The notes beneath the pieces were generated by a model that was given only the letters and a program-made list of their open reading frames with translations, searched no databases and was not told the origin of the DNA. A stretch of 35,233 bases of DNA. Source: a virus. Of the stretch, positions 7,188 through 25,212 are shown one piece after another. The stretch is from positions 1 through 35,233 of the IMG/VR virus record IMGVR_UViG_3300033153_013016. One strand, written 5' to 3'. How positions within the stretch are numbered: the first letter of the stretch is position 1; every line of letters starts with the position of its first letter. A program made the position numbers and the translations under genes.

Positions 7188-7199
7188 GGAAAAAATAAA

Positions 7200-8340: not shown

Positions 8341-8349
8341 AAAATATTA

Positions 8350-8373: not shown

Positions 8374-8391
8374 AGATAAAGGAGAAAAATC

Positions 8392-10482: not shown

Positions 10483-10498
10483 AACAAAGGAGATGATC

Positions 10499-11278
10499 AT
10501 GAAAAAAACACTACTGGCAATTTTATTTTCTTTGGCATTGGTTTGGGCTTCGACCTTGCCGGGATTAGCTTGCGATTTAACTACCGACGAAGCGAGTAAA
10601 ATGGAAGAAACTATCGCAAAAGAGACAACATCTATTTGTCCAAAAACAAAGATGGATGATGATTGTATGCGATGCCATTCGGTTCCAGACTGGACATTAA
10701 AAGAAAAGAAACCGGGAGCTAATAGAGAACTTCCATATATTTCAGATATGCAGATTATAGATAATGGGAAAACAGCTATTATTTTAATTGAAGATATCAC
10801 ATCAAACCGTATATTTGATTTTTTTGATTACGTCAGTTGGCACCCAGAAATAGAAAAATGTATATTCGAAATACATTCTCCTGGTGGATCGTTGTTTGAA
10901 GCATGGCGAATTATCGGGGTAATGGAAACATGGAAATCAAAAGGGATGATCATCGAAACAAGATGTCATGGGTTTGCTTTCAGCGCTGGCTTTATTATAT
11001 TCGTTAATGGTTCTCCGGGACATCGATTAGCCTCGGCAACTTCGGAATTAATGTGGCATGAACTCTATACTTTTGCGATGTTTAAGGTTAGCCGCCCATC
11101 AGATACCATGGATGAGGCCATAGTTTTAAGGCATTTGCAAGATACAGCGAGCAATTTTTTATCCGAAAGATCAAATTTAAGTAAAAAAGAATGGGATGCA
11201 AAAGTTCACAAGAAAGAATTCTGGTGCAACGGTGCACAAGCAACAAAATTGGGGCTTTCTGACGGGTATCCAAAATAA
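10499..11278 (+). CDS. Exported ClpP/crotonase-fold serine protease-like protein with a CxxCH motif
   Basis: The start at 10499 is chosen because AAAGGAG (10486-10492) is 6 nt away; the ATG at 10493 touches that site. Residues 1-25 are a signal peptide (MKKTLLAILFSLALVWAS). CMRCH (56-60) matches a c-type haem attachment site. The rest is ClpP/SppA-like: oxyanion motif IHSPGGSLFEAW (about 125-136), nucleophile-region CHGFAFSAGF with Ser162, and His187 in LMWHELYTF in the position of ClpP 'HQP'. A periplasmic ClpP-fold protein encoded by a phage is unusual. It opens the host-surface block. The substrate is unknown, and haem binding is only suggested by the motif. Confidence 0.7.
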   Translation: MKKTLLAILFSLALVWASTLPGLACDLTTDEASKMEETIAKETTSICPKTKMDDDCMRCHSVPDWTLKEKKPGANRELPYISDMQIIDNGKTAIILIEDITSNRIFDFFDYVSWHPEIEKCIFEIHSPGGSLFEAWRIIGVMETWKSKGMIIETRCHGFAFSAGFIIFVNGSPGHRLASATSELMWHELYTFAMFKVSRPSDTMDEAIVLRHLQDTASNFLSERSNLSKKEWDAKVHKKEFWCNGAQATKLGLSDGYPK

Positions 11279-11285
11279 AAGGGAA

Positions 11286-11414
11286 ATGAAAAAATTTCGC
11301 AAATTATTGAAAGAGGCTTTCTTCACAATACTTTTGATACCCCTTTGTCTAATTGGCTGCATATTTTTAATCGCAACAAGGATATGCCAATGGTGGGAAA
11401 AAATCACAGAATAG
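11286..11414 (+). CDS. Single-helix membrane microprotein (42 aa)
   Basis: An ATG at 11286 opens 42 codons with a basic N-terminus (MKKFRKLLKEAF) and one hydrophobic helix (about residues 12-32, including LIPLCLIGCIFLIA), then a short charged tail. The first GGG-type ribosome signal is close to the ATG, so initiation may rely on coupling with the upstream gene, whose stop is 7 nt before. It overlaps the start of the next gene by 25 nt in another frame. A role cannot be assigned; membrane insertion is likely. Confidence 0.5.
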   Translation: MKKFRKLLKEAFFTILLIPLCLIGCIFLIATRICQWWEKITE

Positions 11415-12145
11415 TAGCAATTATTCAAGCCCGAATGGCTTCAAGTCGATTACCTGGAAAAGTATTATTACCATTAGGGCCAAATAATAAATCGGTTTTA
11501 TGGTGGATGCTAAAGCGGGCCTCGTTAGCTAAATTGGTTGATGAGGCGGTGATCGCAACTGTTCTAAGTGATTCAAATCGTCTTATTCGAGAGGCATTTC
11601 CGCAACAAACTTGGAGTTGGGCAGGAAATGAAAATGATGTAATGGGTCGAGTTCTTTGGGTTGCTAAACAAACAAATGCAGATATCATTGTGGATTTGAG
11701 TGCAGATTGCCCAATAGTTGATCCAAGGCATATTGATTATCTTATTAAAAATTTATTAAATATTAATTTTAATTATGAATATGTATCTAATTGTGCCCCA
11801 ATTAGATCATGGCCAGATGGACTAGATATTCAAGTTTATTGGACAAAAACATTAAAAAAATGTAAAAATGTATTAAATCCTTCTCAACATTGTGGGTGGA
11901 ATATTGGGCAACATTCAGAAATTTTTAATATTTGGTGTAATATAGCAATGGGTTATATGCTTTGGCCAGAATTTGGATTGACTCTTGATACCCCAAGGGA
12001 TTATAAATTATTGAAAATTATATTTAATATATTTTGTCTTAATCCTGGTTTTCATGTTGAAGATGTAATATGTTTTTTAAGATCGCATCCAGAATTAGTT
12101 GAAATTAATAAATCAGTACGACGTAAAACGCCAGAAGAGGGATAG
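11390..12145 (+). CDS. SpsF-family nucleotidyltransferase (CMP-sugar/NDP-sugar synthesis)
   Basis: The start at ATG 11390 follows AAGGA (11378-11382) by 7 nt and places the hallmark IVAIIQARMASSRLPGK at residue 8, as expected for the family. The product is 251 residues. The motif is the nucleotide-binding N-terminus of SpsF and acylneuraminate cytidylyltransferases; VDLSADCPIVDPRHID is the second conserved block, and FGLTLDTPRDYKLL is the family's C-terminal block. Members attach CMP or a related nucleotide to sugars for surface polysaccharide or glycoprotein synthesis. With NeuB-, PseB-, PseC- and GNAT-like genes nearby, activation of a nonulosonic acid is the likely task, but the sugar is not determined. 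Confidence 0.75.
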   Translation: MVGKNHRIVAIIQARMASSRLPGKVLLPLGPNNKSVLWWMLKRASLAKLVDEAVIATVLSDSNRLIREAFPQQTWSWAGNENDVMGRVLWVAKQTNADIIVDLSADCPIVDPRHIDYLIKNLLNINFNYEYVSNCAPIRSWPDGLDIQVYWTKTLKKCKNVLNPSQHCGWNIGQHSEIFNIWCNIAMGYMLWPEFGLTLDTPRDYKLLKIIFNIFCLNPGFHVEDVICFLRSHPELVEINKSVRRKTPEEG

Positions 12146-12150
12146 GAAAA

Positions 12151-12618
12151 ATTTCAATAAGAAACAAAATAATAATTTTATTGATACTTTTGCCCCTCTC
12201 TATTGGCTGTGCTGGCCAGAAAATAAGGATAGGAAAGACAATCGATTTTCTTGGTCCTAAAACAGATATTTCTGTTTATTGGGTTGATATCGATATAAAA
12301 AATTATAAACCTTTTGAAATAAATATGCATACTTTTATTTTTGAAAATAAAATCAGGCCGGGAATTGGATGCAGACTTGGAATAGAAAAAGAAATAAATA
12401 ACTTTTCTATTTTATTTCATGGAGGGATATCGTTGATCCCAAACGGAGGAGATATTCCTGGCCTTGCCAAATCCCCCATTTATGGAACTTTACGGGCAGG
12501 GACAAGATATAAACCGTGGAAAATTGGAATATTTATAGACCATATTTCTTCTCCTTTTCATAGCGGAAAAGATGGAGATGATGGCAAAACACTATTTCTT
12601 TTAGAGAAAGAATTTTAA
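12151..12618 (+). CDS. Probable outer-membrane lipoprotein or small barrel, non-ATG start
   Basis: The frame is coding from about 12151 but contains no ATG near its beginning. The residues ISIRNKIIILLILLPLSIGCAG form a lipoprotein-like signal with Cys at the cleavage site, so the start is probably ATT 12151, ATA 12157 or TTG 12181; AGGA lies at 12144-12147. The mature part alternates hydrophobic and polar residues like beta strands (TFIFENKIRPGIGCRLGIE, then FSILFHGGISLIP) and ends in Phe. GIFIDHISSPFHSGKDGDDG vaguely recalls the His-Ser region of lipid A deacylase-like barrels; I rate that weakly. It likely sits in the host outer membrane. Confidence 0.5.
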   Translation: MSIRNKIIILLILLPLSIGCAGQKIRIGKTIDFLGPKTDISVYWVDIDIKNYKPFEINMHTFIFENKIRPGIGCRLGIEKEINNFSILFHGGISLIPNGGDIPGLAKSPIYGTLRAGTRYKPWKIGIFIDHISSPFHSGKDGDDGKTLFLLEKEF

Positions 12619-12620
12619 AA

Positions 12621-12821
12621 ATGAAAATAGCATACATAAATTCATTAATCAAGCAAATTGAAACAAGAAAAAAAAGAATAGTTCAAGCAAGGGATGAATT
12701 ACAAGTACTATCAGAAAATCTTGAAGAATGTGTTCATGATATGAATTGGGGAATTGGAGCTCTTGAAGATGGAATCAAAAACATAAAAGAGGCAATTGAA
12801 GAAATCAGCCAAACCCTATAA
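12621..12821 (+). CDS. Small coiled-coil protein (66 aa)
   Basis: A 66-residue, helix-forming protein (LIKQIETRKKRIVQARDELQ) with a heptad pattern and no recognised motif. It starts 2 nt after the lipoprotein gene stop, so it is probably in the same transcript. No function can be inferred. Confidence 0.5.
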   Translation: MKIAYINSLIKQIETRKKRIVQARDELQVLSENLEECVHDMNWGIGALEDGIKNIKEAIEEISQTL

Positions 12822-12831
12822 AGGATCAACT

Positions 12832-12942
12832 ATGAATAAAAGGCATAAAAACGAAACATATATTGATTTTAAAATACGAAGAAAAAAGTCAAATAAAAAT
12901 CGTCGAATTAGAGAAAAGAATAAGGCAAGGAGCATTAAATGA
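12832..12942 (+). CDS. Very basic 36-aa protein
   Basis: An ATG at 12832 preceded by AAGGATCAACT opens 36 codons rich in Lys and Arg (FKIRRKKSNKNRRIREKNK). The stop overlaps the next ATG as ATGA (12939-12942), the usual coupling in this genome. It may bind nucleic acid, but no family is recognised. Confidence 0.4.
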   Translation: MNKRHKNETYIDFKIRRKKSNKNRRIREKNKARSIK

Positions 12943-13964
12943 AAACCTATAATGTAGCAATAATTGGATGTGGAAGCATAGGGGCACTGAAACCGGATAA
13001 TATAGATTATCCGGGATCACCTAATATTTTAACACATGCAAATGCTGTAGATCGGCATCCGAGAACAGAATTATTAGCATTTATTGATACTGATCTTAAA
13101 CAATTACGTAAAGCCGCTGATAAATGGCAACCACAAATAGCCACGATATCACTTGATGAAATTAAAAATAAACGAATTGATATTACAATTATAGCAGTTC
13201 CAACCGAATATCATTATAAAATATTACATCAAATATATGTAAATAATGTTGGTAAAATGCCAAAACTTATAATTGCAGAAAAGCCTTTTTGTTCGGAGTC
13301 AGATCAAGCTCGATCAATTACAGAATCATATTCTGATTCAGGCATTCCAATTATGGTTGATTATATTCGTCGTTATGCACAAGGATATCAAGAAATCAAA
13401 AGACAAATTGATTCTGGGATATTTGGCAAGACTTTAAATTGTCGAGTTCTTTATACGAGAGGGCTTTTTCATGAAGGTTGTCATGCCATAGATTTAATGC
13501 GATATTTCTTTGGGGAATGTAATCGAATTGCTACTAATGAAATATTTGATTGTTTATTTACAGAAAAGGGAAGAGACCCTTTTGGAAAGGCGATTATTGA
13601 TAGAGATGAAAAAGACCCTACTGAATTTGAATGTTATGGATTTGAAAAATGTGATCATGTAGTATTTATGCCTTGTGATGGCCGTAAATATGGAATTTTT
13701 GAAGTTGACATTTGCTTTGAAAATTGCCGATTGAGATTTATTGATAATGGCCTCTATGTTGAAAAATATCCAATCAATGAAGAAAATGAATGGGGACACA
13801 AATCACTTGATTATAGGTTGACAAATGTTACCAGGCAAGAAACTGGATTAAATATCGCGCTATATAATCTGATAAACAATGCAGTAAATTTTCTTGATGG
13901 AAAAGAGGATTTAATTTGTATAGATAAAGACGCAATTAAAATTCATGAAATATTGGACATTTAA
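12939..13964 (+). CDS. Gfo/Idh/MocA-family oxidoreductase
   Basis: A 341-residue NAD(P)-dependent dehydrogenase. The N-terminal Rossmann motif is VAIIGCGSIGALK (about 6-18), a conserved family sequence IIAEKPFCSE (EKP motif) occurs near residue 110, and a C-terminal alpha/beta domain follows with LFHEGCHAIDLMRYFFG, the substrate-side His/Asp region. Such enzymes oxidise or reduce sugars and often sit in surface-glycan gene clusters. Here it lies between a sugar nucleotidyltransferase and an aminotransferase, so a step in the same sugar pathway is likely. The exact substrate is unknown. The structured RNA candidate follows it. Confidence 0.8.
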   Translation: MKTYNVAIIGCGSIGALKPDNIDYPGSPNILTHANAVDRHPRTELLAFIDTDLKQLRKAADKWQPQIATISLDEIKNKRIDITIIAVPTEYHYKILHQIYVNNVGKMPKLIIAEKPFCSESDQARSITESYSDSGIPIMVDYIRRYAQGYQEIKRQIDSGIFGKTLNCRVLYTRGLFHEGCHAIDLMRYFFGECNRIATNEIFDCLFTEKGRDPFGKAIIDRDEKDPTEFECYGFEKCDHVVFMPCDGRKYGIFEVDICFENCRLRFIDNGLYVEKYPINEENEWGHKSLDYRLTNVTRQETGLNIALYNLINNAVNFLDGKEDLICIDKDAIKIHEILDI

Positions 13965-13974
13965 AATAATAATT

Positions 13975-14146
13975 CCCACAACGGGTTGCTTCAGATTTTT
14001 CATTTTTACCGTGTAGTGTTCCGAGCGGTTCCCGATTATCTTTCTGAAGTGTAAAATGTATAGGGATAATCAGGAGACCTCCAAAGAAAGGAATCAACGG
14101 CCTGGCCCCACGCTACATCGGAACTAAGGGCCGTTGATTCAATTTT
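13975..14146 (+). ncRNA. Candidate structured RNA with terminator-like 3' hairpin
   Basis: The 197-nt gap after 13964 is not protein coding and is richer in G and C than its surroundings. It holds several matching segments: 13989-13995 with 14043-14049 (CTTCAGA/TCTGAAG); 14001-14009 with 14051-14058; 14034-14040 with 14065-14071 (GATTATC/GATAATC); a perfect 12-bp stem 14091-14102 with 14129-14140; and 14018-14024 (GTTCCGA) with 14118-14124 in that stem's loop. Some pairings cross, so pseudoknots or alternative folds are implied. A T-run follows the last stem. It does not look like a tRNA, and I cannot match it to a known class. Confidence 0.5.
14091..14146 (+). terminator. 12-bp perfect hairpin with T-run
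   Basis: GAATCAACGGCC at 14091-14102 pairs perfectly with GGCCGTTGATTC at 14129-14140 around a 26-nt loop, followed by AATTTTT. This may terminate the transcript ending after the Gfo/Idh gene or protect the 3' end of the upstream RNA. The loop is longer than in classical terminators and contains a segment complementary to 14018-14024. Confidence 0.5.
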
Positions 14147-14161
14147 TAAAAGGAAGAAATT

Positions 14162-14317
14162 ATGCCTTGGCAAATAATAGCAGTAATTTCTTTTGGGCTT
14201 GGATTTTATTTTGCCATTTATATTTTAGATATATATTATCGCAAAGCTATGAAAAATATAATTGATGAAATACATAAATGTTATTTGATAGCATTAAAAA
14301 ATAAGGAGAAACGATGA
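14162..14317 (+). CDS. Single-helix membrane microprotein (51 aa)
   Basis: An ATG at 14162 follows AAGGAAGAAATT and opens 51 codons. Residues about 4-24 are a hydrophobic helix (IIAVISFGLGFYFAIYIL) and the remainder is basic and amphipathic. The stop overlaps the next start as ATGA, tying it to the FN3 protein. It could be a membrane partner for exported products. No family recognised. Confidence 0.5.
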   Translation: MPWQIIAVISFGLGFYFAIYILDIYYRKAMKNIIDEIHKCYLIALKNKEKR

Positions 14318-15306
14318 AAAAACTCATTAAAGCATCTATGGTATTTGTTTATTTTATTATTTTTTTATTTATTAGTTCTATGGCTTATGCATCTGGGGTT
14401 ACATTAAAATGGGATGCAAATACAGAAAATGATTTAGCGGGATATAAGATTTATTATGGGTATAATTCAGGAATATATGACGGAATAAATATTAATCAAG
14501 GGGATTCTCCAATAGTCATAACAATATTAGATCAAAATGACCCCAATTATATGAACAATGAAAATCCAGAATTTAGTCTTTCTGGATTAGATTATGATAT
14601 GAATGATTATTATTTTGTTATCACTGCATATGATACTGAAATACCGGCTTTAGAATCTGGGTATTCCAATGAGGTAGATACAGTTGGGTTTAATTTGCCA
14701 ACAATACCACAAAATTTAACAGCATTAGTAATTGGTACGTATAGAATTGATTTGGATTGGGATATTTCAACAGATAATGTTAGTATAATAGGTTATAATA
14801 TTTATAGAAATGGAATTATAATTAATAATGTAATTGCAAATAATTACAGCGATGTTAATGTATTGCCAAATATAAATTATAATTACACAGTAACCGCCTT
14901 AGATGATGATGGGCATGAAAGTGGACATTCAAATACAGTGTCTGCTATGACCAGCGATGGTACTCCCCCAAGTACACCACAGAATTTAGAAGCATTAACG
15001 ATTTCATCGACCTCAATTGAATTAGAATGGGAAAAATCAACAGACAATATCGGAGTAATCGGATATGATGTTTATAGAGATTCTAATTATATTGCTTCGG
15101 TGATTGGTGAAATCTCTGATTTTATTTCTTATACTGATATTGGATTAGTTTCTTCTACATTATATGCCTACAGTGTTGTAGCGTGGGACGCCGCTAATAA
15201 TAGAAGTGGGCATTCGGATTTATTAAATGTCACAACTTTGGCAAATAATGCACCATCCTCTTCGGGTGGCAAGAAGGGTGGATGTTTTATTAATATTATT
15301 TTATAA
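14314..15306 (+). CDS. Secreted fibronectin type III protein with a GGCFI tail
   Basis: A 330-residue exported protein. Signal peptide at residues 1-26 (ending SSMAYA). Three fibronectin type III units follow: VTLKWDANTENDLAGYKIYYG, then the units starting near 'IPQNLTALVIG' and 'PSTPQNLEALTIS', each with the 'S-T-D-N-x-x-x-x-G-Y-x-x-Y-R' pattern. The C-terminus SSSGGKKGGCFINIIL resembles the GGCFI start of CFI-box C-terminal sorting signals, but it stops where those continue, so it looks truncated. The first FN3 unit is of a type common in environmental Deltaproteobacteria. Likely role: surface adhesion, or display on the infected cell. Confidence 0.75.
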   Translation: MKKLIKASMVFVYFIIFLFISSMAYASGVTLKWDANTENDLAGYKIYYGYNSGIYDGININQGDSPIVITILDQNDPNYMNNENPEFSLSGLDYDMNDYYFVITAYDTEIPALESGYSNEVDTVGFNLPTIPQNLTALVIGTYRIDLDWDISTDNVSIIGYNIYRNGIIINNVIANNYSDVNVLPNINYNYTVTALDDDGHESGHSNTVSAMTSDGTPPSTPQNLEALTISSTSIELEWEKSTDNIGVIGYDVYRDSNYIASVIGEISDFISYTDIGLVSSTLYAYSVVAWDAANNRSGHSDLLNVTTLANNAPSSSGGKKGGCFINIIL

Positions 15307-15332
15307 GGAAAGATAACATAAAAACTTTCAAA

Positions 15333-15356
15333 AAACTCTGAAAAAACCTTATAATA
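15333..15356 (+). promoter_or_regulatory. Recurrent 24-bp promoter-like element, copy 3
   Basis: The third copy reads AAACTCTG, then AAAAAAC, then CTTATAATA, with TATAAT at 15350-15355. It lies in the gap of 103 nt between the FN3 and barrel genes. A degenerate half copy (AAAACTTTCAAAAAA, 15321-15335) lies directly upstream, giving a tandem look. It presumably drives the second part of the surface-sugar block. Confidence 0.55.
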
Positions 15357-15409
15357 TATTAATAAAAACAAAAATTATAAACTAAATTCAAAAAATGGAG
15401 GAAAATAAA

Positions 15410-16129
15410 ATGGAAAAATTTTTAAAATGGTTGGTTTTAATATTAGCAATAATAATGCTATTTATTATTGTCGGCACAAAAGCTTATGCCGAAGATGAAA
15501 AAGATTGGAAATTATCAACAAGCTTTTATAAAACGATAGCATTAGACCAAGAATCAATTGTTCAAAGTGGCCATGGTGTTCAGCTATCATTGCATCGGAA
15601 AAGTTTATATTTATATCTGTCCAAGGACAAAAACCAAGTCCGTTTTGCTGGGCAGGGTGGGCCTGATATATGCCTATGGTCAGCCGGTATTGGTATGCAA
15701 CGTGACTTGGGTAACCATTTGACTTTATCTGTAGATATTGGATGGTATGAACCAAAATTTCCAGAAATGGGAGAACCACAAGAATATATGTCTTCACCTT
15801 TTGCAGAAGGTTTAGGACGTTATCTTAATAAATTTCTTATGCCCGATGCAGGCGGACAGACATTTTATCCAGCTTGGGATTATTACTCGCTGGAACATCA
15901 TGGAAGTATAGGTGGCAAAATCAATCTCGCTTTTGAATATCCGATAACGAAAAGAACCTCGTTTAATTTAATTGGTGGCTACAGATATTTAAAGCTGCTT
16001 GAAAATGTGAGGGGTGAAGATTATGATGGTGGATATGCGCGGTTAGGAGAGGCCGGATGCTGGACGATCAGATACGACAGAGACTTTTCTGCCTGGATGA
16101 TTGGTGGGGCATTTATTTTTGAATTTTAA
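15410..16129 (+). CDS. Exported beta-barrel-like outer-membrane protein
   Basis: The start at ATG 15410 is preferred over 15395 because GGAGG (15397-15401) lies 8 nt upstream of it. The 239-residue product has a signal peptide (FLKWLVLILAIIMLFIIVG ... KAYA, about 1-27), then alternating strands such as HLTLSVDIGWYEP, INLAFEYPI, FNLIGGYRYL and SAWMIGGAFIFEF, ending in Phe, as is usual for outer-membrane barrels recognised by the assembly machine. It may alter the host surface or exclude superinfecting phages. The specific family is not recognised. The aminotransferase gene follows after 12 nt. Confidence 0.6.
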   Translation: MEKFLKWLVLILAIIMLFIIVGTKAYAEDEKDWKLSTSFYKTIALDQESIVQSGHGVQLSLHRKSLYLYLSKDKNQVRFAGQGGPDICLWSAGIGMQRDLGNHLTLSVDIGWYEPKFPEMGEPQEYMSSPFAEGLGRYLNKFLMPDAGGQTFYPAWDYYSLEHHGSIGGKINLAFEYPITKRTSFNLIGGYRYLKLLENVRGEDYDGGYARLGEAGCWTIRYDRDFSAWMIGGAFIFEF

Positions 16130-16141
16130 AAGGGAGAGGTC

Positions 16142-17428
16142 ATGAAAAAACTTGCGATTAATGGAGGGCAAAAGGTAAGAACGGAATTATTTCCAAGCCA
16201 AGATACATTTGATTGGCACGAATATAATGCTGTCACTGATGTTATGTATAATGGCAGATTATCAAATTATAGAGCTAATTGGACAGAAGATTTTTATGGT
16301 GGACCAAAAATAAAGGAACTCGAAAAAGATTGGTCAAATAAATTTGGTTCAAAATTTTCCATTGCCATTAATTCAGCAACTTCTGGCCTTATTGCCGCCT
16401 GTGGGGCAATTGGGCTTCAGCCAGGCGATGAAGTTATTGTAACTCCTTATTCTATGACATGTAGTGCTACAGTGCCCTTGATTTTTGGAGTGTTGCCGGT
16501 ATTTGCTGATATTGAAGAAGATTATTTTTGCCTTGATCCCGAAGATGTTAAAAAGAAAATCACCAAAAAAACAAAGGCAATTATTGTTGTTTCCTTATTT
16601 GGTCAACCATATAATCAAGAGATAAATAATATTGCAAAAGAACATGGGATATATGTTATTGAAGATGCTGCCCAAGCCCCTGGAGCGATGTATAAAGAGA
16701 AATATACTGGCACACTTGCTGATATCGGGGTATTCTCTTTTAATTATGGCAAGCATATTAATGGCGGGGAAGGCGGGATTATAACCACAGATGATATTAA
16801 TCTTGAAATGAGATGCCGATTATTTATGAATCATGGAGAGGCTGTTATAAATGATGTTTTAGAATATGATAGGCCTCGTTTAAATTGGGAAAAATGCATT
16901 AATCATATTGTCGGTTTTAATTTCAGAATGACAGAACTTACTGCGGCGGTGGTAATTGAGCAACTTAAAAAGTTTGATGATCTTTTAAAACAGCGAGAAG
17001 AAAACATTCAATGCCTCGATAGTTACATGTTTGACACACCTATAAAATTTTTACCACCCAAGCAAGATTACACTCATACACATTATGTTCTGCCATATGT
17101 TTGGGACGATACCAAACTACACAGAGATAAATATATCGAAGCGGTCAAGGCAGAATTAATGCCAAGAAAAGATAGGGATACAGAAGGAGTGCCGATTGGT
17201 TGTGGATATATAAAGCCCATTTATTTAATGCCACTATTTCAAACCAGGACTCATTGGGCATTGAAAAAGGGCTTTTATTATAAGGGGCTTTGTCCTGTAG
17301 CAGAAGATCTGTGGAAAAACAAATTATTTTTGACTTTGCTTCATGCCCCTTGCAGTACACAAAATGATATGGACGATGTTGGGAAAGCATTTGTAAAGGT
17401 ATGGGAGAATAGAAATGAAATTCTTTGA
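16142..17428 (+). CDS. DegT/DnrJ/EryC1/StrS-family PLP aminotransferase (PseC-like)
   Basis: A 428-residue sugar aminotransferase. Family marks: NSATSGLIAACGAIGLQPGD (about 77-96), IEDAAQAPGA (Asp175, Gln178) for the pyridine ring, and the Schiff-base lysine Lys204 in FSFNYGKHINGGEGG. Enzymes of this family move an amino group to a keto-sugar nucleotide, for example PseC in pseudaminic acid and related steps in legionaminic acid synthesis. The PseB-like dehydratase at 20302 would supply the keto sugar. The product is somewhat longer than PseC (about 380 aa). Exact sugar and stereochemistry are not determinable here. Confidence 0.85.
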   Translation: MKKLAINGGQKVRTELFPSQDTFDWHEYNAVTDVMYNGRLSNYRANWTEDFYGGPKIKELEKDWSNKFGSKFSIAINSATSGLIAACGAIGLQPGDEVIVTPYSMTCSATVPLIFGVLPVFADIEEDYFCLDPEDVKKKITKKTKAIIVVSLFGQPYNQEINNIAKEHGIYVIEDAAQAPGAMYKEKYTGTLADIGVFSFNYGKHINGGEGGIITTDDINLEMRCRLFMNHGEAVINDVLEYDRPRLNWEKCINHIVGFNFRMTELTAAVVIEQLKKFDDLLKQREENIQCLDSYMFDTPIKFLPPKQDYTHTHYVLPYVWDDTKLHRDKYIEAVKAELMPRKDRDTEGVPIGCGYIKPIYLMPLFQTRTHWALKKGFYYKGLCPVAEDLWKNKLFLTLLHAPCSTQNDMDDVGKAFVKVWENRNEIL

Positions 17429-17504
17429 AGGAATAATATATACTATACCATTTTCTATAATTATATGGACAATGATTTTTGTCGCTTATAAATTAATTTT
17501 CTAA
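17415..17504 (+). CDS. Single-helix membrane microprotein (29 aa)
   Basis: An ATG at 17415 within the end of the aminotransferase gene opens 29 codons, nearly all hydrophobic (IIYTIPFSIIIWTMIFVAYK). GAGAAT lies upstream. The 14-nt overlap and occurrence of similar microproteins after other genes of this block suggest it is real, but the length makes it uncertain. Confidence 0.35.
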   Translation: MKFFEGIIYTIPFSIIIWTMIFVAYKLIF

Positions 17505-17518
17505 ATAGGAAAATAAAA

Positions 17519-18352
17519 ATGTCAATCAAATTCATCGCAGAAATAGGAAGTAATCATAATCGTGATATTGTTCGAACATTAAAATTAATTGGCGAGGCTA
17601 AAAAAATTGGGGCATGGGGAGTAAAGTTTCAGTTATTTAGGGCACATAAATTATATGCCCCAGAATTCAAAGCACAGATCAAAAAAATGAAAAAATGGGA
17701 ATTGCCAGTTAATTTTATTAATCATATTAAAATGCGATGCCAAACTAATAATCTTAAATTCATATGTACCCCTTTTGATCTTGATGCAGTGGATTTTTTA
17801 AAAAATCGTATTGATATTTTTAAAATTGGAAGTTATGAATTGCTCTACACGAACTTGATTAAAGCAGTAATTGAAACCGAACAACCCTGGATTATGTCTA
17901 CGGGAATGACAACATTTTCACAAATAGCGGAAATTGTAGAAAAAGAATTAAACAATCCCCCTTGTGCTCTCTTGGCCTGCAATAGTAATTATCCGGCGGA
18001 ACCAGAAAATTGTAATCTTGGGACAATCAGTAAACTAAAAAACTATTTCTTTCGTTGTCTCGTCGGCTGGAGTGATCATACAGTTAAGCCAGGGGTTATT
18101 TATAAAGCAATTGCTCTTGGTGCCAAAATAATTGAATTTCATTTTGATTTAGAAGATGGAAAAGGATTTGAAAGCAAAATCGGCCACTGCTGGAAACCAA
18201 GTCAGATTAAAGATGTAATACACAATATTAAGATTGGCGAAATTGCCGAGCAACATAATGATTCCAACGAAACAGAAGCTAAAAAATGGAGAACAGACCC
18301 GAAAGATGGAATGCGGCCATTGAGAGAATTTAGGAAGGAATTGTTAAAATGA
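17519..18352 (+). CDS. NeuB/PseI/LegI-like nonulosonic acid synthase, catalytic domain only
   Basis: A 277-residue protein matching the TIM-barrel domain of sialic acid-type synthases: FIAEIGSNHNRD (5-16), GVKFQLF (about 34-40), FICTPFDLDAVDFL, FKIGSYEL, MSTGMTTFSQI, LVGWSDHT and IIEFHFDLEDGKGF. The family condenses PEP with an N-acetylated aminohexose to make a nonulosonic acid. Normal NeuB/PseI proteins are about 340 aa and have a C-terminal SAF (antifreeze-like) domain that lids the active site; it is missing, and the protein ends soon after MRPLREFRKELLK. Whether it is active alone, or specific for another substrate, is unclear. It overlaps the next gene by 4 nt. Confidence 0.82.
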   Translation: MSIKFIAEIGSNHNRDIVRTLKLIGEAKKIGAWGVKFQLFRAHKLYAPEFKAQIKKMKKWELPVNFINHIKMRCQTNNLKFICTPFDLDAVDFLKNRIDIFKIGSYELLYTNLIKAVIETEQPWIMSTGMTTFSQIAEIVEKELNNPPCALLACNSNYPAEPENCNLGTISKLKNYFFRCLVGWSDHTVKPGVIYKAIALGAKIIEFHFDLEDGKGFESKIGHCWKPSQIKDVIHNIKIGEIAEQHNDSNETEAKKWRTDPKDGMRPLREFRKELLK

Positions 18353-18648
18353 TTTTAGATGAATTTGAAAAAAATTTAAAAACTATAGATAAAATTAAAA
18401 CGGATGACAATTTTGCAATAGATATATATCGATCTCTTTGCAATATGAGGTGGAAAAAAGTCGGGACAAATGAAGTATATAACTGTACATGGAGATATGC
18501 GGGTGAATTGGTTGCAAATATAAGAGATATAGGTGAAAATTATATGCATTTTTATTGTTCCGGGTATGAAGGGCAGGTTACAAAAGAAATAAATAAAATA
18601 TTCAATAGTTTTGGTTGGGCACAATATCCGTGGCCAGAGGATATATAA
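18349..18648 (+). CDS. Hypothetical protein (99 aa)
   Basis: A 99-residue soluble protein with helical N-terminus and a sequence of strands in the middle (EVYNCTWRYAGELVAN, NYMHFYCSGYEG). It starts at ATGA shared with the synthase and ends as TAATG with the sialidase-like gene, so all three are translationally coupled. No family recognised; a role linked to its neighbours is possible. Confidence 0.55.
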   Translation: MILDEFEKNLKTIDKIKTDDNFAIDIYRSLCNMRWKKVGTNEVYNCTWRYAGELVANIRDIGENYMHFYCSGYEGQVTKEINKIFNSFGWAQYPWPEDI

Positions 18649-19715
18649 TGAAACATTCAATAATTTATAAACAAAAAGATAAGTATGCCAGTTTTCCATT
18701 ATTGCAGAAACGAGAGGGCCGAATTTTAATTGGGTTTTTTAGTGCACCAAAACCAGATCATATGGGATTATTTGAATGGAAAATTTTAGAATCCATTGAC
18801 CAAGGAAATAGTTGGCATTCTTATAATAAGCCTCATTATCTTATACCATCAGTTTCTTCAAGAGAAATTTCAGATAGATTTGTATATCAATTAGATAAAG
18901 AAAAAATTATAACTGGATCATATGGATTTAGAGAACAATGGAATTCTGGTAAAGATGTAAAGGAAATTCATAAAAGCAAAAGTTTATTTATTCGTTCTTC
19001 TGATGATAATTGGAAAACCATGAATCACAGATTTTATGAAATCCCAAATGCCGATATTGTATGTACATTTCCAAGGCCATTAGAACCAAGAGAATACGAT
19101 CCCATAAGATTAATTCCTGCTTATGTCGTTTTAAAAAATGGATTAAATCGAGCATTAGCCTGGCAATCCGAAGATTTTGGCAAAACCTGGCGATTATATA
19201 ATATGTTTCCAAGTGAAATTAATGCCAATGAAGTAGCGTTTATCTGGGTCTCGGATAAGATTCTTGCCCATATACGCAGTGATAGACACCCTTATATTAT
19301 GGAAAGTTGGAGCGAAGATAATGGAAAAACCTGGACATATCCAACCAATGTATATATGGAGGATAATAATTTTAGAGGCAATGTGGTTGGTGGGCCCCCA
19401 CATCTATTGAGATTAGAAGATGGCAGAATTTTATGCACTTATGGATATCGCCAAAATAAGATGGGAATCCGGGCTGTTGTATCGGAAGATGAAGGGAATA
19501 CTTGGACAAGGCCGATTATTTTAAGGTCTGATGGTGGTTATAGAAGTAGCTTATATAAGAAGAAATGGTTTTGGCAACAAGAAATTCATCCCGGAAATGA
19601 CATAGGTTACCCCGTTTCGATTCAACTTGATAATGAAGAAATCTTGACCGCTTATTATATAACAACAAAAGATCAGATTACGGGGATCGAAACAACAAAA
19701 TGGAAGGTTAAATGA
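18648..19715 (+). CDS. Sialidase-like BNR/Asp-box beta-propeller
   Basis: The start ATG 18648 shares TAATG with the preceding stop and has GAGG just upstream. The product is 355 residues with repeated Asp boxes: SIDQGNSWHS, SSDDNWKTM, SEDFGKTWRLY, SEDNGKTWTYP and SEDEGNTWTRP, the mark of six-bladed sialidase-type propellers. Two late segments, GGYRSSLYKKK and DIGYPVSIQLDNEEILTAYY, resemble the region holding a catalytic Arg and Tyr in exo-sialidases, though I cannot assign the arginine triad with confidence. No signal peptide is present, so it may act in the cytoplasm, be released at lysis, or join the virion. Next to a synthase it could trim or recognise the same sugar. Confidence 0.72.
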   Translation: MKHSIIYKQKDKYASFPLLQKREGRILIGFFSAPKPDHMGLFEWKILESIDQGNSWHSYNKPHYLIPSVSSREISDRFVYQLDKEKIITGSYGFREQWNSGKDVKEIHKSKSLFIRSSDDNWKTMNHRFYEIPNADIVCTFPRPLEPREYDPIRLIPAYVVLKNGLNRALAWQSEDFGKTWRLYNMFPSEINANEVAFIWVSDKILAHIRSDRHPYIMESWSEDNGKTWTYPTNVYMEDNNFRGNVVGGPPHLLRLEDGRILCTYGYRQNKMGIRAVVSEDEGNTWTRPIILRSDGGYRSSLYKKKWFWQQEIHPGNDIGYPVSIQLDNEEILTAYYITTKDQITGIETTKWKVK

Positions 19716-19813
19716 AAGGATTTTTGATATGGTTGGCAATTATGATAGGATCATTTTGTTTGACTGTAATTGTATTTGCTACATTGGCAGAATTCAATAT
19801 AATATCATTATAG
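19712..19813 (+). CDS. Single-helix membrane microprotein (33 aa)
   Basis: An ATG at 19712 overlaps the previous stop as ATGA and opens 33 codons: a strongly hydrophobic helix (LIWLAIMIGSFCLTVIVFAT) with almost no polar tail. It is one of four such one-helix ORFs in this block. Function unknown. Confidence 0.42.
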   Translation: MKGFLIWLAIMIGSFCLTVIVFATLAEFNIISL

Positions 19814-19820
19814 GAATAAA

Positions 19821-20105
19821 ATGAGAAACAATACAGATAATTTACGAAAAAATAAATGGTTACAACGAGAAATAGATTATCTGATTGAAAATTACAATCA
19901 TAAAGGTAACAAAGAAATCGGGGAGGATATTAAAAAATCCAAAGATGCGGTGGCGGCAAAACTTTGCTCATTGGGTTTAACAAGAACAAATAAAAAATAT
20001 ATATCAGAAATAAGAAATACTCATGAAAATTCAATACAGAGAAAAAAATTATTTGCAGGATGGGATAAATTATTTGCTCCTCCTAAAATAGAGGAGGAAA
20101 TATGA
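19821..20105 (+). CDS. Homeodomain-like/Myb-type DNA-binding protein
   Basis: A 94-residue protein with the pattern KWLQREIDYLIENYNHKGN, then KEIGEDIKKSKDAVAAKL, then CSLGLTR. This is the three-helix layout of phage and plasmid SANT/Myb-like or GcrA-like DNA-binding domains, in which the third helix (DAVAAKLCSLGL) reads DNA. A basic tail follows. It may regulate the surrounding block. It starts 7 nt after the small membrane ORF and overlaps the next gene by 4 nt. Confidence 0.65.
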   Translation: MRNNTDNLRKNKWLQREIDYLIENYNHKGNKEIGEDIKKSKDAVAAKLCSLGLTRTNKKYISEIRNTHENSIQRKKLFAGWDKLFAPPKIEEEI

Positions 20106-20305
20106 AATATAAAGATTATAATGATTTAAAAAAAGAATTAAAAAATTTACCCATAACTTGGTATCCTACATTGATAATTGAAATGGCAAAAACGGCATAT
20201 AAACGAAAAGCATTTGTTGTGCCGGGTGGGGCATCAAGGCTTATTAAAGAATTGGAAGAAAAACATGGATGGCGATATGGTTTTAAAATAAAGGAGAAAG
20301 AATGA
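20102..20305 (+). CDS. Small hypothetical protein (67 aa)
   Basis: A 67-residue basic protein with no recognised motif (LPITWYPTLIIEMAKTAYK, then VVPGGASRLIKELEEKHGW). It has GAGGAAAT before the ATG and overlaps both neighbours by 4 nt. Function unknown. Confidence 0.55.
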   Translation: MKYKDYNDLKKELKNLPITWYPTLIIEMAKTAYKRKAFVVPGGASRLIKELEEKHGWRYGFKIKEKE

Positions 20306-21336
20306 AACATAAAGAAGTATTAATAACTGGCGGAACCGGTTCGCTTGGAAAAGAATTGATAAAGCAATTAATAAAACAAAAATGCACAAAGGGAATTCGA
20401 ATATTTTCAAGGGATGAATTGAAACAATGGGAATTAAGAAAAACATTTGATCCGGCTTGGCAAATTTCTTTTCTCATTGGTGATATCAGGGATTATGAAC
20501 GGCTAAAAATGGCCATGAAAGGGGTAGATATTGTCATTCATTGTGCTGCCCTCAAACAAGTTCCATCTTGTGAATATAATCCAATAGAAGCAATCAAGAC
20601 AAATATAACTGGTGCCGAAAATGTTGTTCGAGCAGCATTAGAAAACAATGTCGAAAAAGTGATGAATATTAGCACGGATAAAGCGGTTTACCCAATAAAT
20701 CTTTATGGGATGACAAAGGCGGTTGCCGAAAAACTATTTACACAGGCCAACATATACTCCGGCAACAGGCAAAAACCAATGTTTGCATCATGCAGATATG
20801 GTAATGTTATTGGTTCAAGAGGTAGTATATTTCCTTTATTTGCCAAACAAATTAAAAAACAAGGATTTATAACAATCACTCACAAGGATATGACAAGATT
20901 TTTTATACCGTTAGAACGGGTAGCTGAATTTGTTATTGATAGAATTGATGATATGAAACCCGGGGAAATATATATTCCAAAAATGCCCTCTGCTCATATT
21001 CAAATGATTGCAGAGGAATTTATAAGGCAAAGTGGAGGAGTTTTTATTACCCCATATTATCCAAGTCAAAAATATGAACAACTTAAAAAAAACGTAACCG
21101 ACAAAATGACAAAAGATAATATAAAAGAAATCGGCATCCGGCCAGGTGAAAAAATCCATGAAACATTAATAACTAAAGAAGAAGGAAAAAAAGTATTTCA
21201 TAACGGGATTTTTGGTCATTATACAATTACACAACAAGATAATATTAAACACCCTATTTTTGGATATCAAAGTGATACTAATCCCGAATGGTTATCGGCA
21301 AAAGATATAAAGGGAATTATTGATGAAACTATATGA
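20302..21336 (+). CDS. PseB-like UDP-GlcNAc 4,6-dehydratase (SDR)
   Basis: A 344-residue extended short-chain dehydrogenase. NAD motif VLITGGTGSLGKEL (about 6-19), then FSRDELKQWELRK, which matches the PseB/CapD-family 'SRDE-x-KQ' segment; GDIRDYERL, CAALKQVPSCEYNPIEAIKTN, the catalytic STDKAVYPINLYGMTK with the Tyr-x-x-x-Lys pair, and CRYGNVIGSRGS. PseB-type enzymes convert UDP-GlcNAc to a 4-keto-6-deoxy sugar and are the first step of pseudaminic acid (or similar amino-sugar) synthesis. The aminotransferase at 16142 and acetyltransferase at 21320 are the natural next steps. It overlaps the acetyltransferase gene by 17 nt. Confidence 0.87.
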   Translation: MKHKEVLITGGTGSLGKELIKQLIKQKCTKGIRIFSRDELKQWELRKTFDPAWQISFLIGDIRDYERLKMAMKGVDIVIHCAALKQVPSCEYNPIEAIKTNITGAENVVRAALENNVEKVMNISTDKAVYPINLYGMTKAVAEKLFTQANIYSGNRQKPMFASCRYGNVIGSRGSIFPLFAKQIKKQGFITITHKDMTRFFIPLERVAEFVIDRIDDMKPGEIYIPKMPSAHIQMIAEEFIRQSGGVFITPYYPSQKYEQLKKNVTDKMTKDNIKEIGIRPGEKIHETLITKEEGKKVFHNGIFGHYTITQQDNIKHPIFGYQSDTNPEWLSAKDIKGIIDETI

Positions 21337-21898
21337 AAATGATGATATTTATGTGAAGCCATTTACCAAAGATGATATGACAGAAACTTATTTAAGTTGG
21401 TTTTATGATTCAGAAGTAACAAAATTTAATTCACATGGTCTGTTTCCATATACCAGTAAACAAAAAAAAGATTTTATTCATTCTTTAGATATCAATATTG
21501 TATGGGCAATTATGGCAAAAAATAAAAATGTAATTGGAATTGGTAATTTTATTAAACCACCTGACTATTATGATGATACTCATATAGGCAACATATCTTT
21601 TCAATCAATTAATTGGGTAAATCGTTCTGCTGAATTTGCTGTAGTAATTGGAGATACTAATTACTGGAAAAAAGGAATATGCACAACAGTCGGACAATGG
21701 TTATTTGAACACGGGTTTAATAAACTCAATCTTCACAGAATATGGTCCGGAACCGCGGCAGTTAATACGGGAATGATAAAAGTATTTAAAAAACTCGGCA
21801 TGAAAGAGGAAGGTAGATTTAGAGAGGGAACATATCTTGCCGGTGATTATTATGATGTTGTTTGCTATGGGAAATTAAAAAATGAGCATAATAGATAA
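21320..21898 (+). CDS. GNAT-family N-acetyltransferase (PseH/RimJ-like)
   Basis: A 192-residue acetyl-CoA-dependent acyltransferase: IYVKPFTKDDMTETYLSWF at the start, VIGIGNFI and SAEFAVVIGDTNYWKKGICTTVGQWLFEHGF in the acetyl-CoA-binding centre, and LHRIWSGTAAVNTGMIKVFKKLGMKEEGRFRE, the typical C-terminal GNAT block. In nonulosonic acid pathways PseH-like enzymes acetylate the 4-amino sugar made by a PseC-like enzyme. RimJ/RimL-type protein acetylation is the alternative. The location directly after the PseB-like gene favours the sugar role. An ATG at 21323 is an equally possible start. Confidence 0.78.
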   Translation: MMKLYENDDIYVKPFTKDDMTETYLSWFYDSEVTKFNSHGLFPYTSKQKKDFIHSLDINIVWAIMAKNKNVIGIGNFIKPPDYYDDTHIGNISFQSINWVNRSAEFAVVIGDTNYWKKGICTTVGQWLFEHGFNKLNLHRIWSGTAAVNTGMIKVFKKLGMKEEGRFREGTYLAGDYYDVVCYGKLKNEHNR

Positions 21899-22085
21899 AA
21901 TATTTAAACAAAATAAACCAATAAATATAATAGATGAAATAGAAAAAATAAGATCAGAAAATAATAAAAATTGGATGAATTTGCTTCGGCTTGCCAAAAA
22001 ATACGCCCCAGAAGAAGCCAAAGAAATATTCAATAAAATTATCGAATGTGATATGAAAATTAGCAGATTAATGAAGGAGCTTTAA
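21882..22085 (+). CDS. Small helical hypothetical protein (67 aa)
   Basis: A 67-residue protein: IIDEIEKIRSENNKNWMNLL then RLAKKYAPEEAKEIFNKI and a helical end. The run 'IRxxNNxxWMxLLRLAxKxAPEEAKxI' looks conserved and resembles small proteins I have seen near nonulosonic acid genes, but I cannot name a family. It overlaps the acetyltransferase by 17 nt and the next gene by 1 nt (TAATG). Confidence 0.55.
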   Translation: MSIIDKIFKQNKPINIIDEIEKIRSENNKNWMNLLRLAKKYAPEEAKEIFNKIIECDMKISRLMKEL

Positions 22086-22327
22086 TGCTAATATTAAAAG
22101 AAAATTGTAAATGTGGTGCCCAATTTTATATATCCTCTTCTGAAGATAATTTTTGTTCAAGTCGCTATCGTGAATTTTTAGAGGCCCATAAAGTCTGTCG
22201 AGAAATGAAAAATAAACAAAACATTATGTTTAACAATAAAAGTTTTTGCCCTATACAGTGGCCTGTAATAGGAAATATGCCTGAAATAATAAATTGTCCA
22301 ATCTGCGGAACAATTTGCTATAGATAA
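22085..22327 (+). CDS. Small Cys-rich hypothetical protein
   Basis: An 80-residue protein with Cys pairs at the two ends (CKCG near residue 8 and CPICG near 73) plus other cysteines between, consistent with zinc binding. It begins at TAATG shared with the preceding gene. No family recognised. Confidence 0.52.
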   Translation: MLILKENCKCGAQFYISSSEDNFCSSRYREFLEAHKVCREMKNKQNIMFNNKSFCPIQWPVIGNMPEIINCPICGTICYR

Positions 22328-22359
22328 ATTAATTATTATAAATTAAATAAGGAGATTCA

Positions 22360-25212
22360 ATGCAAAAAACTCTACAAAAAAATATCGGAACCTTACAAAA
22401 AATAAATCCTGCTTTAACAGAATGGCTCAAAAAAGAAAAGCCATCTGACTGGATACAAAAAATAAAAAGTCAAAATGGAGATGATAATTTTCTTATTGAA
22501 TCAGGCAGCCAATTCACTCCCGCTTATTCAATGAAAAATCCAGTCAAAGAGGCTAAAAAAGCTGTCAAGAAAATGGATCTACATAAAGAAAATATTTCAA
22601 TTTTACTTGGGATAGGCCTCGGATATTTAGCCAACGAAATATTGATTAAGATGGAAAAAGGCCATAAACTAATTGTTATTGAGCCCGTAGCGGATATATT
22701 AAAAATTGCATTAGGCAAATTCAATTTCGTTAAGTATTTTGAGAATGGCTCATTACTTTTGGTTACTCCAGGAGGAAATGATTCCATACAAAATAAATTG
22801 GCTTTTGCTTTACATTTTTTAAGCAATCAATCTGTAATAGAAGCGTGGCCATTTACAATTGAACTCTATACTCAAAAAAGACCAGATGAATATAAGGATT
22901 TAACGAAACTTACTTCGGACGTTCTTAATCAAATTCTCTGTAATACTGGAACGATTGCGGGTGCCGCTGGCGGAATCATTGCCGATAATGATATGCGATG
23001 TATGCCATATTTAATTAGACATCGAGGGGTTGCCGAATTAAAAAATTTATACAAAGATAAACCGGCCATTTTAGTAAGCACCGGCCCTTCTCTTGCTAAA
23101 AATATTCATCATTTAATTAATATACAAGACAAGGTTATTATTATATGTGTTGGGCAAGCATTGAGAGTTTTGCTTGCGTATGATATTCGACCGGATTTTG
23201 CCTGTACGGTCGATTTTGGAGAAGTCAATTATGTTCATTTCAAAGGACTGATGGATTGTGGAATTCCGCTTGTAACAATAAATAGAACATATGCAAAACT
23301 GATAAAAGATTGGCAAGGTCCAAAATTCGTAGCAGCAACTCCGGTTCCGGGATTCGAAGATATGGCTACCGGAATATTAACAGATAAGGGATTCATCGAA
23401 GCCGGGGGGTCTGTCGCTCATCTCTGTTTTGGATTGGCTCAATTATTAGGATGCAACCCAATTACATTTATTGGTCAAGATTTAGCTCTCGGAAAAACCT
23501 CCCATATTGCACAAGCTGATGCAGGGGGAGAAGTTTTTGTTGATAAAAACGGATTGATAGGCTGGAAAGTTAAGGATCAACGATGTCATTTATTTGGCGA
23601 TAATTTACATGGAATGGGCTATGTTCAATATGTGTCAGGGTATTATGGGCAGGCAGTCATGACGAACGCAGGATTAATGAGTTTCAAAACAGTTTTTGAA
23701 AACATGATTGAGAGATGGGAAAAAGAAAATAATATAATAATCAACAGCACCGAAGGCGGCTGTCATATCAAAGGCTCAAAAAGAATATCTCTTAAAAATG
23801 TCATCAAAAAATACTGCCAAAATCCCATTGATAAATCAGTAATAACTCCGCTTTTATCTCATGCCGATAATGCCGATGAACTAATCAAAAAAGTCATCCC
23901 ATTACTTAAACAGGATATTGATAATTTAAACGAGATAATAATCAATAGTAGAAAGGGAATAGCAGTTAGTCATGGCATTAAAACCCTGATGAATCGCCCT
24001 GAGTATAACCGATTATTGCCTAAAAAGACAGAGAAGATGTTCAATAAGTTAAATCAAAAAGCTATACAAGAATCACAAGGAAATCAATTATTGGTAAATC
24101 AATTATTTTTTAAAATGGCAATCGATAAACTAAAAAAATGTAGACTCAAAACAATGATGATTATGTCAGAAAAAAACTTTATATTTTCCGAAAACGCCCA
24201 TATTGCTGCTGTTAAAAACCCCTTGGTTAATGTGGCTATATACGGGGCAACCAGACAAATTGCTACACGAGGATTAAAAGTCGACCCCACTATCAATCAT
24301 TTTTTAAAGAATAAAAAAGATGCAATAATTCGAACAGAACGCAATATGATTATTCTAAATGCGGCCAAAACTGCTTCTGAATCTCTAAAAAAATCATATA
24401 GAAAAACTCTAAAACTTCTAAAAAAATATGATAAAACAAAGGATGATAATTTATTAACGTCGTTTGAAAAAGAACCTATTAATCTAAAAGATGCCGAAGA
24501 TTATTTTAAGGCAGGCAACTGGGCACATCCTTTATTAGATGCAAAAAAATATATGAATCAAAAAGAATGTTGTGGCATTAAAAAATATGAAAGCGCAAAA
24601 AGGATATATTACAAAGCCATAGAAATGAAAGATAAGGCAATCTATAAAGCCAAAGAAGACGAAAAAGAACATCACGATAAGATGATCAAATTGGTTAAAT
24701 ATAATGAATTACTTGAAAATGCAAAAGATGCAGGCAGATTAGATAAAGATTTTGATCAGGCTTTAGAATTGATGAAAGAGGCAATTGAATTAATGCCCGA
24801 TGAACAGGAGGCAAGATGGGGATTAGCAACAGCATTGCATCATGCACAAAAAATAGAAGAATCAATCAAAGAATATAAAAAACTTATTGAAGATTTTCCC
24901 GACAATAATACATTCCGGTTTGAATACGGGCAGGTTTTACTTCTTGAAAATGATTTGAAAGAAGGACTTAAACAAATCGGAATAGTCATGGAAAAGACAG
25001 ATGAATTTGATAGTTTTTTATCCCGATTAGGAGAAATATATGAACATGCTGGAATGGATAAAGAAGCTCTTGTAGCTTATAGCGCTTATTTAAAAAAATA
25101 CCCATATGACTACAAAATATGGAATAAAAAAGGCGATTGCCTTACCGCATTAAATAGAAAAGCAACCGCCAAAAAAGCATATCAAAAAGCTCTTGATATT
25201 AAGCCTGATTAA
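22360..25212 (+). CDS. Maf/DUF115 glycosyltransferase (motility accessory factor-like) with TPR tail
   Basis: A 950-residue protein. The N-terminal part has SILLGIGLGYLANEIL and LIVIEPVADIL; the central part (about 230-430) carries the DUF115/MptE-like core KPAILVSTGPSLAKNI, then IRPDFACTVDFGEVN, and GGSVAHLCFGLAQLLGCNPITFIGQDLAL. In bacteria Maf proteins transfer pseudaminic or legionaminic acid to flagellin Ser/Thr. Residues about 790-950 form roughly four TPR units (e.g. DFDQALELMKEAIELMP, KKAYQKALDIKPD), a protein-binding tail. In this sugar-synthesis block it is the likely transferase that uses the made sugar. The acceptor (host flagellin or a virion protein) is unknown. AAGGAG sits before the ATG. 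The stop overlaps the opposite-strand tailspike stop. Confidence 0.85.
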   Translation: MQKTLQKNIGTLQKINPALTEWLKKEKPSDWIQKIKSQNGDDNFLIESGSQFTPAYSMKNPVKEAKKAVKKMDLHKENISILLGIGLGYLANEILIKMEKGHKLIVIEPVADILKIALGKFNFVKYFENGSLLLVTPGGNDSIQNKLAFALHFLSNQSVIEAWPFTIELYTQKRPDEYKDLTKLTSDVLNQILCNTGTIAGAAGGIIADNDMRCMPYLIRHRGVAELKNLYKDKPAILVSTGPSLAKNIHHLINIQDKVIIICVGQALRVLLAYDIRPDFACTVDFGEVNYVHFKGLMDCGIPLVTINRTYAKLIKDWQGPKFVAATPVPGFEDMATGILTDKGFIEAGGSVAHLCFGLAQLLGCNPITFIGQDLALGKTSHIAQADAGGEVFVDKNGLIGWKVKDQRCHLFGDNLHGMGYVQYVSGYYGQAVMTNAGLMSFKTVFENMIERWEKENNIIINSTEGGCHIKGSKRISLKNVIKKYCQNPIDKSVITPLLSHADNADELIKKVIPLLKQDIDNLNEIIINSRKGIAVSHGIKTLMNRPEYNRLLPKKTEKMFNKLNQKAIQESQGNQLLVNQLFFKMAIDKLKKCRLKTMMIMSEKNFIFSENAHIAAVKNPLVNVAIYGATRQIATRGLKVDPTINHFLKNKKDAIIRTERNMIILNAAKTASESLKKSYRKTLKLLKKYDKTKDDNLLTSFEKEPINLKDAEDYFKAGNWAHPLLDAKKYMNQKECCGIKKYESAKRIYYKAIEMKDKAIYKAKEDEKEHHDKMIKLVKYNELLENAKDAGRLDKDFDQALELMKEAIELMPDEQEARWGLATALHHAQKIEESIKEYKKLIEDFPDNNTFRFEYGQVLLLENDLKEGLKQIGIVMEKTDEFDSFLSRLGEIYEHAGMDKEALVAYSAYLKKYPYDYKIWNKKGDCLTALNRKATAKKAYQKALDIKPD

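Follow-up and report, generated by a model that had tools for sequence, protein, structure and literature searches.

A conserved phage cassette related to nonulosonic acid synthesis and Maf-type protein glycosylation

The stretch analyzed here (“the window”) is the entire IMG/VR virus record IMGVR_UViG_3300033153_013016, which is 35,233 bp long with a G+C content of 34.6%. Within positions 11345-25212, all on the plus strand, lies a cassette of sugar-pathway genes that ends with a gene for a Maf-type glycosyltransferase. The cassette sits between phage recombination genes and contractile-tail genes. Clamp-loader-like (AAA), RecA-like, SMC-like and Mre11-like genes are located to its left, and contractile tail, baseplate and tape-measure genes are encoded on the minus strand to its right. 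PseB-PseC-PseH-PseG-PseI-PseF build pseudaminic acid, a nonulosonic acid (NulO), and Maf adds such sugars to flagellin. A first-pass annotation of this DNA had proposed that the phage both makes and attaches such a sugar. The features are as follows:

11384..12145, plus strand: SpsF/NeuA-like cytidylyltransferase (CTP_transf_3), 253 aa from ATG (266 aa from TTG at 11345), without a PseG fusion; PDB match 6oew_A, E 3e-26
12939..13964, plus strand: Gfo/Idh/MocA oxidoreductase, 341 aa; kept in every phage cassette seen in full; in bacteria it adjoins DegT2 and PseF/SpsF
16142..17428, plus strand: DegT-family pyridoxal phosphate-dependent aminotransferase of the “DegT2” type, not PseC, 428 aa; invariant K204
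17519..18352, plus strand: NeuB-like nonulosonic acid synthase, 277 aa; TIM barrel only, without a SAF domain
18651..19715, plus strand: BNR/sialidase-like propeller protein, directly after NeuB; best PDB match 5hx0_A
20302..21336, plus strand: PseB-type UDP-N-acetylglucosamine (UDP-GlcNAc) 4,6-dehydratase, 344 aa; D126-K127-Y135 conserved
21323..21898, plus strand: GNAT (Acetyltransf_3) N-acyltransferase; its match in a bacterial flagellin island is the extra GNAT and not the PseH domain
21882..22085, plus strand: small conserved cassette protein, 67 aa; 5' of Maf in most phages
22360..25212, plus strand: Maf-type glycosyltransferase, 950 aa, with an MptE-like/DUF115 domain (219-378) and a C-terminal TPR domain

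Pfam searches confirmed all seven gene families named in the first-pass annotation as one plus-strand block: CTP_transf_3 (E 3e-19), GFO_IDH_MocA (1e-10), DegT_DnrJ_EryC1 (4e-76), NeuB (1e-50), Polysacc_synt_2 (5e-94), Acetyltransf_3 (1e-20) and MptE-like (5e-45). The families thus stood up to profile searches, whereas the finer Pse names fell below NCBIfam equivalog cut-offs. For the cytidylyltransferase, KdsB models gave the best NCBIfam scores and the PseF model TIGR03584 had no match. The PseB-type protein has a full Polysacc_synt_2 match and its best PDB match is 2gn4, with which it shares an STDK...NLYG motif. Residues D126, K127 and Y135 are invariant.

The NeuB-like protein is very probably a NulO synthase. 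Nine phage proteins all keep residues K36, Q38, K102, S185-D186-H187, E206 and H208, and the AlphaFold model (mean confidence, pLDDT, 88) matches NeuB 1xuu, the short, SAF-less Leptospira protein 6ncs and PseI 8h2c, well above KDO8P and DAHP synthases. For comparison with bacteria we used 395 genomes of one phylum, the Desulfobacterota, to which L010 (a Desulfuromusa metagenome-assembled genome) belongs. The SAF domain is absent from the NeuB of the window and present in that of the bacterial contig L067, and a C-terminal RxDPxDGxRP-like tail is common to SAF-less bacterial NeuBs and most phage NeuBs. The nearest bacterial SAF-less NeuBs share 42-45% identity and occur together with PseB, PseC and PseG. 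In L053, PseB and PseC beside the SAF-less NeuB both exceed their equivalog cut-offs, and in L053 and L056 PseG is fused to an SpsF-like domain. Because bacterial SAF-less NeuBs sit with PseB, PseC and PseG, we tie this form of the enzyme to pseudaminic-type pathways.

The Maf protein is probably a CMP-NulO:protein transferase. It matches PF01973 (MptE-like) with 154 bits and, weakly, Maf_flag10_N (5e-6), and its predicted structure (pLDDT 87) has the Maf protein 5mu5 as top Foldseek match in the PDB (E 2e-15). It thus resembles the Maf/PseD flagellin glycosyltransferases (5mu5, Magnetospirillum) in its MptE-like/DUF115 domain, the trace of Maf_flag10_N and the overall fold. Unlike Maf/PseD of Magnetospirillum, it has a C-terminal domain of TPR repeats and belongs to a phage clade of its own: 10 phage Mafs group together with 100% SH-aLRT (approximate likelihood ratio test) support, joined in this one-phylum tree by TPR-type bacterial Mafs. 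Bacterial Mafs matched with up to 224 bits, at 25-28% identity. To our knowledge, the Maf proteins characterized so far act on flagellin. Maf donors are CMP-NulOs (PMC11339370), and in FlmG, another flagellin transferase, the TPR domain binds flagellins (PMC7591256). The earlier proposal of a phage-borne NulO cassette with a Maf-type transferase is thus far supported.

The Maf gene of the window is uninterrupted, unlike that of L002, in which about 730 bp (L002:13163-13892) follow codon 455 and contain an open reading frame (ORF; 13173-13868) for a 231-aa HNH-endonuclease-like protein. No intron model in Rfam matched this insert, and it may be an intron or a disruptive insertion.

A Maf profile search and NeuB scans of viral contigs recovered about 10 further contigs with the cassette beyond the window and its sister, although any of these viral records may be a fragment. 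The sister, L002/L003 (IMGVR 3300033153_013843), has a module 74-92% identical and the same tail genes. A tail-sharing phage, L011/L012, has a collinear module with most enzymes at 49-58% identity, and a 122.6-kb phage, with different flanks and with unrelated genes interspersed in the module, has a collinear module at 31-45% identity. The full set of SpsF, Gfo/Idh, DegT, NeuB, PseB, GNAT and Maf occurs in L011/L012, L016, L017, L020 and L005/L021. It is also complete in L014 and L019, but there the NeuB-like protein has shrunk to ~215 aa. BLAST missed it, and in L014 it matches PseI only weakly (31 bits); as this protein occupies the slot, we dismissed a loss of NeuB in these two. PseB is missing from L022, which has two SpsF-like genes, and the cassettes of L015 and L018 are cut by contig ends. 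SpsF-Gfo-DegT-NeuB-PseB-GNAT-Maf is the general gene order; L020 departs from it in that NeuB follows GNAT, and L022 in that Gfo precedes SpsF. Although the intervening genes of L005 are unrelated (by eye, HNH-like, RNA-ligase-like and others), all seven module genes are kept there, which argues that the seven work together. The 67-aa protein is encoded 5' of SpsF in L016 and went undetected in L015, L019 and L020. All module genes have a ratio of nonsynonymous to synonymous substitution rates (dN/dS) of 0.08-0.26 between the window and L002, indicating purifying selection. Given this and the same order in divergent phages, the cassette is not a chance assembly, and it is almost certainly real and under selection. 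The cluster is shared by many phage genomes, and the first-pass annotation withstood the refutation test that it had set itself. The nearest bacterial relatives of the cluster lie in pseudaminic acid/flagellin islands.

Among these contigs, L022 encodes a 226-aa protein (L022:7874-8554) with no Pfam match that by eye resembles a sugar-isomerase-type TIM barrel, possibly an alternative first step in this PseB-less cassette with two SpsF-like genes. The same contig encodes a 795-aa portal-like protein (L022:18449-20836) with an apparent intein-like insert (CLPYKTRISTPDG... to ...VHNSN). In the viral contig L008 (7804-10735), SpsF and NeuB of low identity accompany an MptE-like stretch, a second and more distant kind of viral NulO/Maf set.

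The first-pass annotation held that only a PseG-type hydrolase was not visible. A search for PseG at E 0.1 indeed gave no match in any of the 11 viral records, with positive controls detected and with the proviso that records may be incomplete; all six bacterial genomes with SAF-less NeuB relatives have a PseG-like match. However, PseC and PseH are missing as well. In the tree, phage DegT and bacterial DegT2 fall on one side and PseC on the other, with 100% support for each, and DegT reaches only 199 of 423.5 bits against the PseC model, so its identification as PseC was dismissed. It keeps the invariant K204, and its PDB matches include the 8-amino-Kdo transaminase 5k8b. Close relatives of phage DegT were found in only 4 of the 395 genomes. 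In each of the four, DegT2 neighbors Gfo/Idh as well as a PseF/SpsF gene, and a protein of ~360 aa (“X”) is encoded nearby. In L067 and L058, DegT2 coexists with a separate aminotransferase of the PseC clade. The reading of GNAT as PseH failed too: it scores 34 of 93 bits to PseH and has no BLAST match to the PseH-like domain of L067, but phage GNATs match the extra GNAT of L067 (E 7e-27 at best, 1e-20 for the window). L067 carries PseB, PseC, PseG-PseH-like, PseI, PseF, Gfo, X, DegT2, GNAT, a Maf-TPR gene and flagellin on a single contig; PseB (486 bits), PseG (226), PseI (476) and PseF (318) exceed their cut-offs and PseC (417) is just below. As judged from sequence, the cassette thus consists of PseB, NeuB, a CTP transferase and Maf plus a Gfo-DegT-GNAT branch, without PseC, PseH and PseG. 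Since DegT and GNAT belong to this additional branch and three canonical middle steps are absent, a self-sufficient phage pathway is not demonstrated.

Loci for protein X are L067:10370-11488, L068:7927-9006 and L069:1075-2160; the protein has a GGxxxLLPV-like motif and a weak match to TIGR04396.

We put at about 50% the probability that the cassette retailors a host NulO, followed by protein O-glycosylation. From the observed gene content, conservation, selection, homology and predicted folds we infer the enzyme activities, the order of steps, the host supply, the acceptor and the purpose. PseB would channel UDP-GlcNAc into a pseudaminic-type route, and the host would provide the missing steps PseC, PseH and PseG, a supply that we consider slightly favored. 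The SAF-less NeuB would condense the resulting free 6-carbon amino sugar with phosphoenolpyruvate, and the SpsF-like enzyme would activate the NulO with CMP. Through oxidation by Gfo/Idh, transamination by DegT2 and N-acylation by GNAT, an extra acylamino group may be added to the sugar or its precursor. Maf-TPR would then transfer the CMP-NulO to Ser/Thr of a protein. Host flagellin, captured by the TPR domain, is a plausible acceptor in our analysis and the one toward which we lean by a little. The purpose may be an altered surface or flagellar glycan as seen by competing phages, or an effect on motility. More tentatively, and with less confidence than in the steps above, the cassette could be passed between phages that otherwise differ and act as a mobile, phage-specific switch of the flagellar glycotype, equipped with its own SAF-less NulO synthase, an undescribed N-acylated NulO from Gfo-DegT2-GNAT, the 67-aa protein as a dedicated partner and a TPR-guided Maf, which would overwrite the host flagellin glycan during infection.

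Several points weigh against the retailoring of a host NulO. No complete route can be drawn because PseC, PseH and PseG are missing. None of the NCBIfam equivalog cut-offs was reached (PseB 363 of 407.75 bits, PseC 199 of 423.5, NeuB 162 of 399.65, PseI 151 of 340.25 and PseD 115 of 670). Protein X was in none of the phage loci tested, though it is a neighbor of the bacterial Gfo-DegT2 branch. The PseB-less L022 and the restriction of the bacterial comparison to a single phylum also count here. The 11 viral records yielded neither flagellin nor an integrase, so that a durable change to host flagella is not evident.

The same chemistry could serve a different acceptor, be it a late protein of the virion such as a tail fibre or a surface protein of the host other than flagellin, resulting in virion decoration or receptor masking. 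In tail-sharing phages the cassette is convergent toward tail-fibre and baseplate genes (tail-fibre proteins are encoded at 25209-26801 and 26822-27187 in the window), and flagellin is not encoded in the viral records. However, the cassettes of L005/L021, L016 and L022 were not seen beside homologous tail genes, the bacterial Maf-TPR relative in L067 adjoins flagellin, and the characterized Mafs known to us act on flagellin. We regard such an acceptor as possible but unlikely. It is more doubtful that the cassette is self-contained, with DegT2 and GNAT acting on the PseB product in place of PseC and PseH, an extra redox step by Gfo/Idh and an unrecognized or host phosphohydrolase instead of PseG. 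There is one enzyme for each needed class except the hydrolase, and DegT2 is the sole aminotransferase in the cassette, but L067 and L058 carry DegT2 in addition to PseC and PseG, phage GNAT does not match the PseH domain of L067, and L022 keeps DegT2 and GNAT without PseB. We consider it improbable that the product is another 3-deoxy-ulosonic acid, such as a Kdo (3-deoxy-octulosonic acid)-like or 8-amino-Kdo-like sugar, and not a nine-carbon NulO. The best scores of KdsB models for the CTP transferase, the 8-amino-Kdo transaminase among the DegT matches and the acceptance of CMP-Kdo by some Mafs (PMC11339370) are consistent with such a product, but fold and sequence rank the synthase with NeuB/PseI/SpsE, well above KDO8P and DAHP synthases, and PseB and the Pse context in bacteria also speak against it. 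Finally, the cassette genes have bacterial relatives, but a misassembled or accidentally transduced bacterial glycan island is very hard to reconcile with phage genes on both flanks in the window, L002, L011, L014 and L017, the same arrangement in independent metagenomes, and phage Maf and phage DegT each forming one clade with 100% support.

Other genes are interspersed in the cassette or next to it. The BNR propeller (18651-19715) was found only in the window, the sister L002 and L011/L012, and has no obvious signal peptide. Exported or outer-membrane-like proteins among the cassette genes, which suggest a diderm host, are a lipoprotein (12181-12618), an fn3 protein (14314-15306) and a beta-barrel-like protein (15395-16129); the fn3 protein is in the window only, and the other two are common to the window and L002. 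In the lipoprotein-like ORF (12099-12618; lipobox ...GC-AGQ), the signal-peptide start is in a different frame compared with L002:3010-3528, which hints that the window has a frameshift or uses another start. A ClpP-family protease (10493-11278), which has a CxxC region and whose N-terminus resembles a signal peptide, immediately precedes the cassette in the window and is shared with L002. Upstream, 5982-9956 encodes an SbcCD-like set as separate genes, namely an SMC-like ATPase (5982-7187), an Mre11-like phosphoesterase (7411-8340) and a second SMC-like C-terminal piece (9300-9956); the trio is also upstream of the cassette in L014 and L019. Rfam detected no RNA in the window or L002.

A two-gene precedent is EpaA-EpaB of Acinetobacter baumannii prophages, shown by nuclear magnetic resonance to act on host pseudaminic acid via a CTP transferase and oxidoreductases (PMC12053666). 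Both systems are phage-borne and combine a CTP_transf_3 cytidylyltransferase with oxidoreductases, but these are aldo/keto and short-chain dehydrogenase/reductase enzymes in EpaA-EpaB and Gfo/Idh in the window. EpaA-EpaB also lacks a synthase, an aminotransferase/acyltransferase branch and a protein transferase, and its target is the capsule. In Bacillus subtilis, SpsF, a putative cytidylyltransferase, is required for legionaminic acid transfer (PMC7439481). With bacterial pseudaminic acid/flagellin islands the cassette shares PseB, a NeuB-type synthase, a CTP transferase and Maf, and with L067 also Gfo/Idh, DegT2, GNAT and Maf-TPR. Unlike these islands, the phage set has no PseC, PseH, PseG, X or flagellin, and its NeuB is usually SAF-less. 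The Kyanoviridae marine virus AG-345-L05 (MH319754) has SpsF-DegT-NeuB in the same order as the window, but at 25-35% identity and with no Maf or Gfo/Idh match in the stretch examined. Isolate phage records had no Maf match, NeuB matches in three records (29-32%) and two weak Gfo matches. Maf, NeuB, SpsF and Gfo all lack a PHROG, and we found no phage-encoded Maf and no complete NulO cassette in the open-access literature. Such kits were previously seen in phages only in small pieces.

Phages are known to alter host surface sugars using one or two enzymes. Here, a conserved set for synthesis, activation and protein transfer occurs in divergent phages and is apparently absent from sequenced isolate phages. 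If its proposed role is true, phages are able to commandeer a whole route of protein glycosylation, and one can test whether they remodel the glycans of flagella as a means of controlling motility or competing phages. The SAF-less NeuB, like the Gfo-DegT2-GNAT branch, also hints at a nonulosonic acid that has not yet been described.

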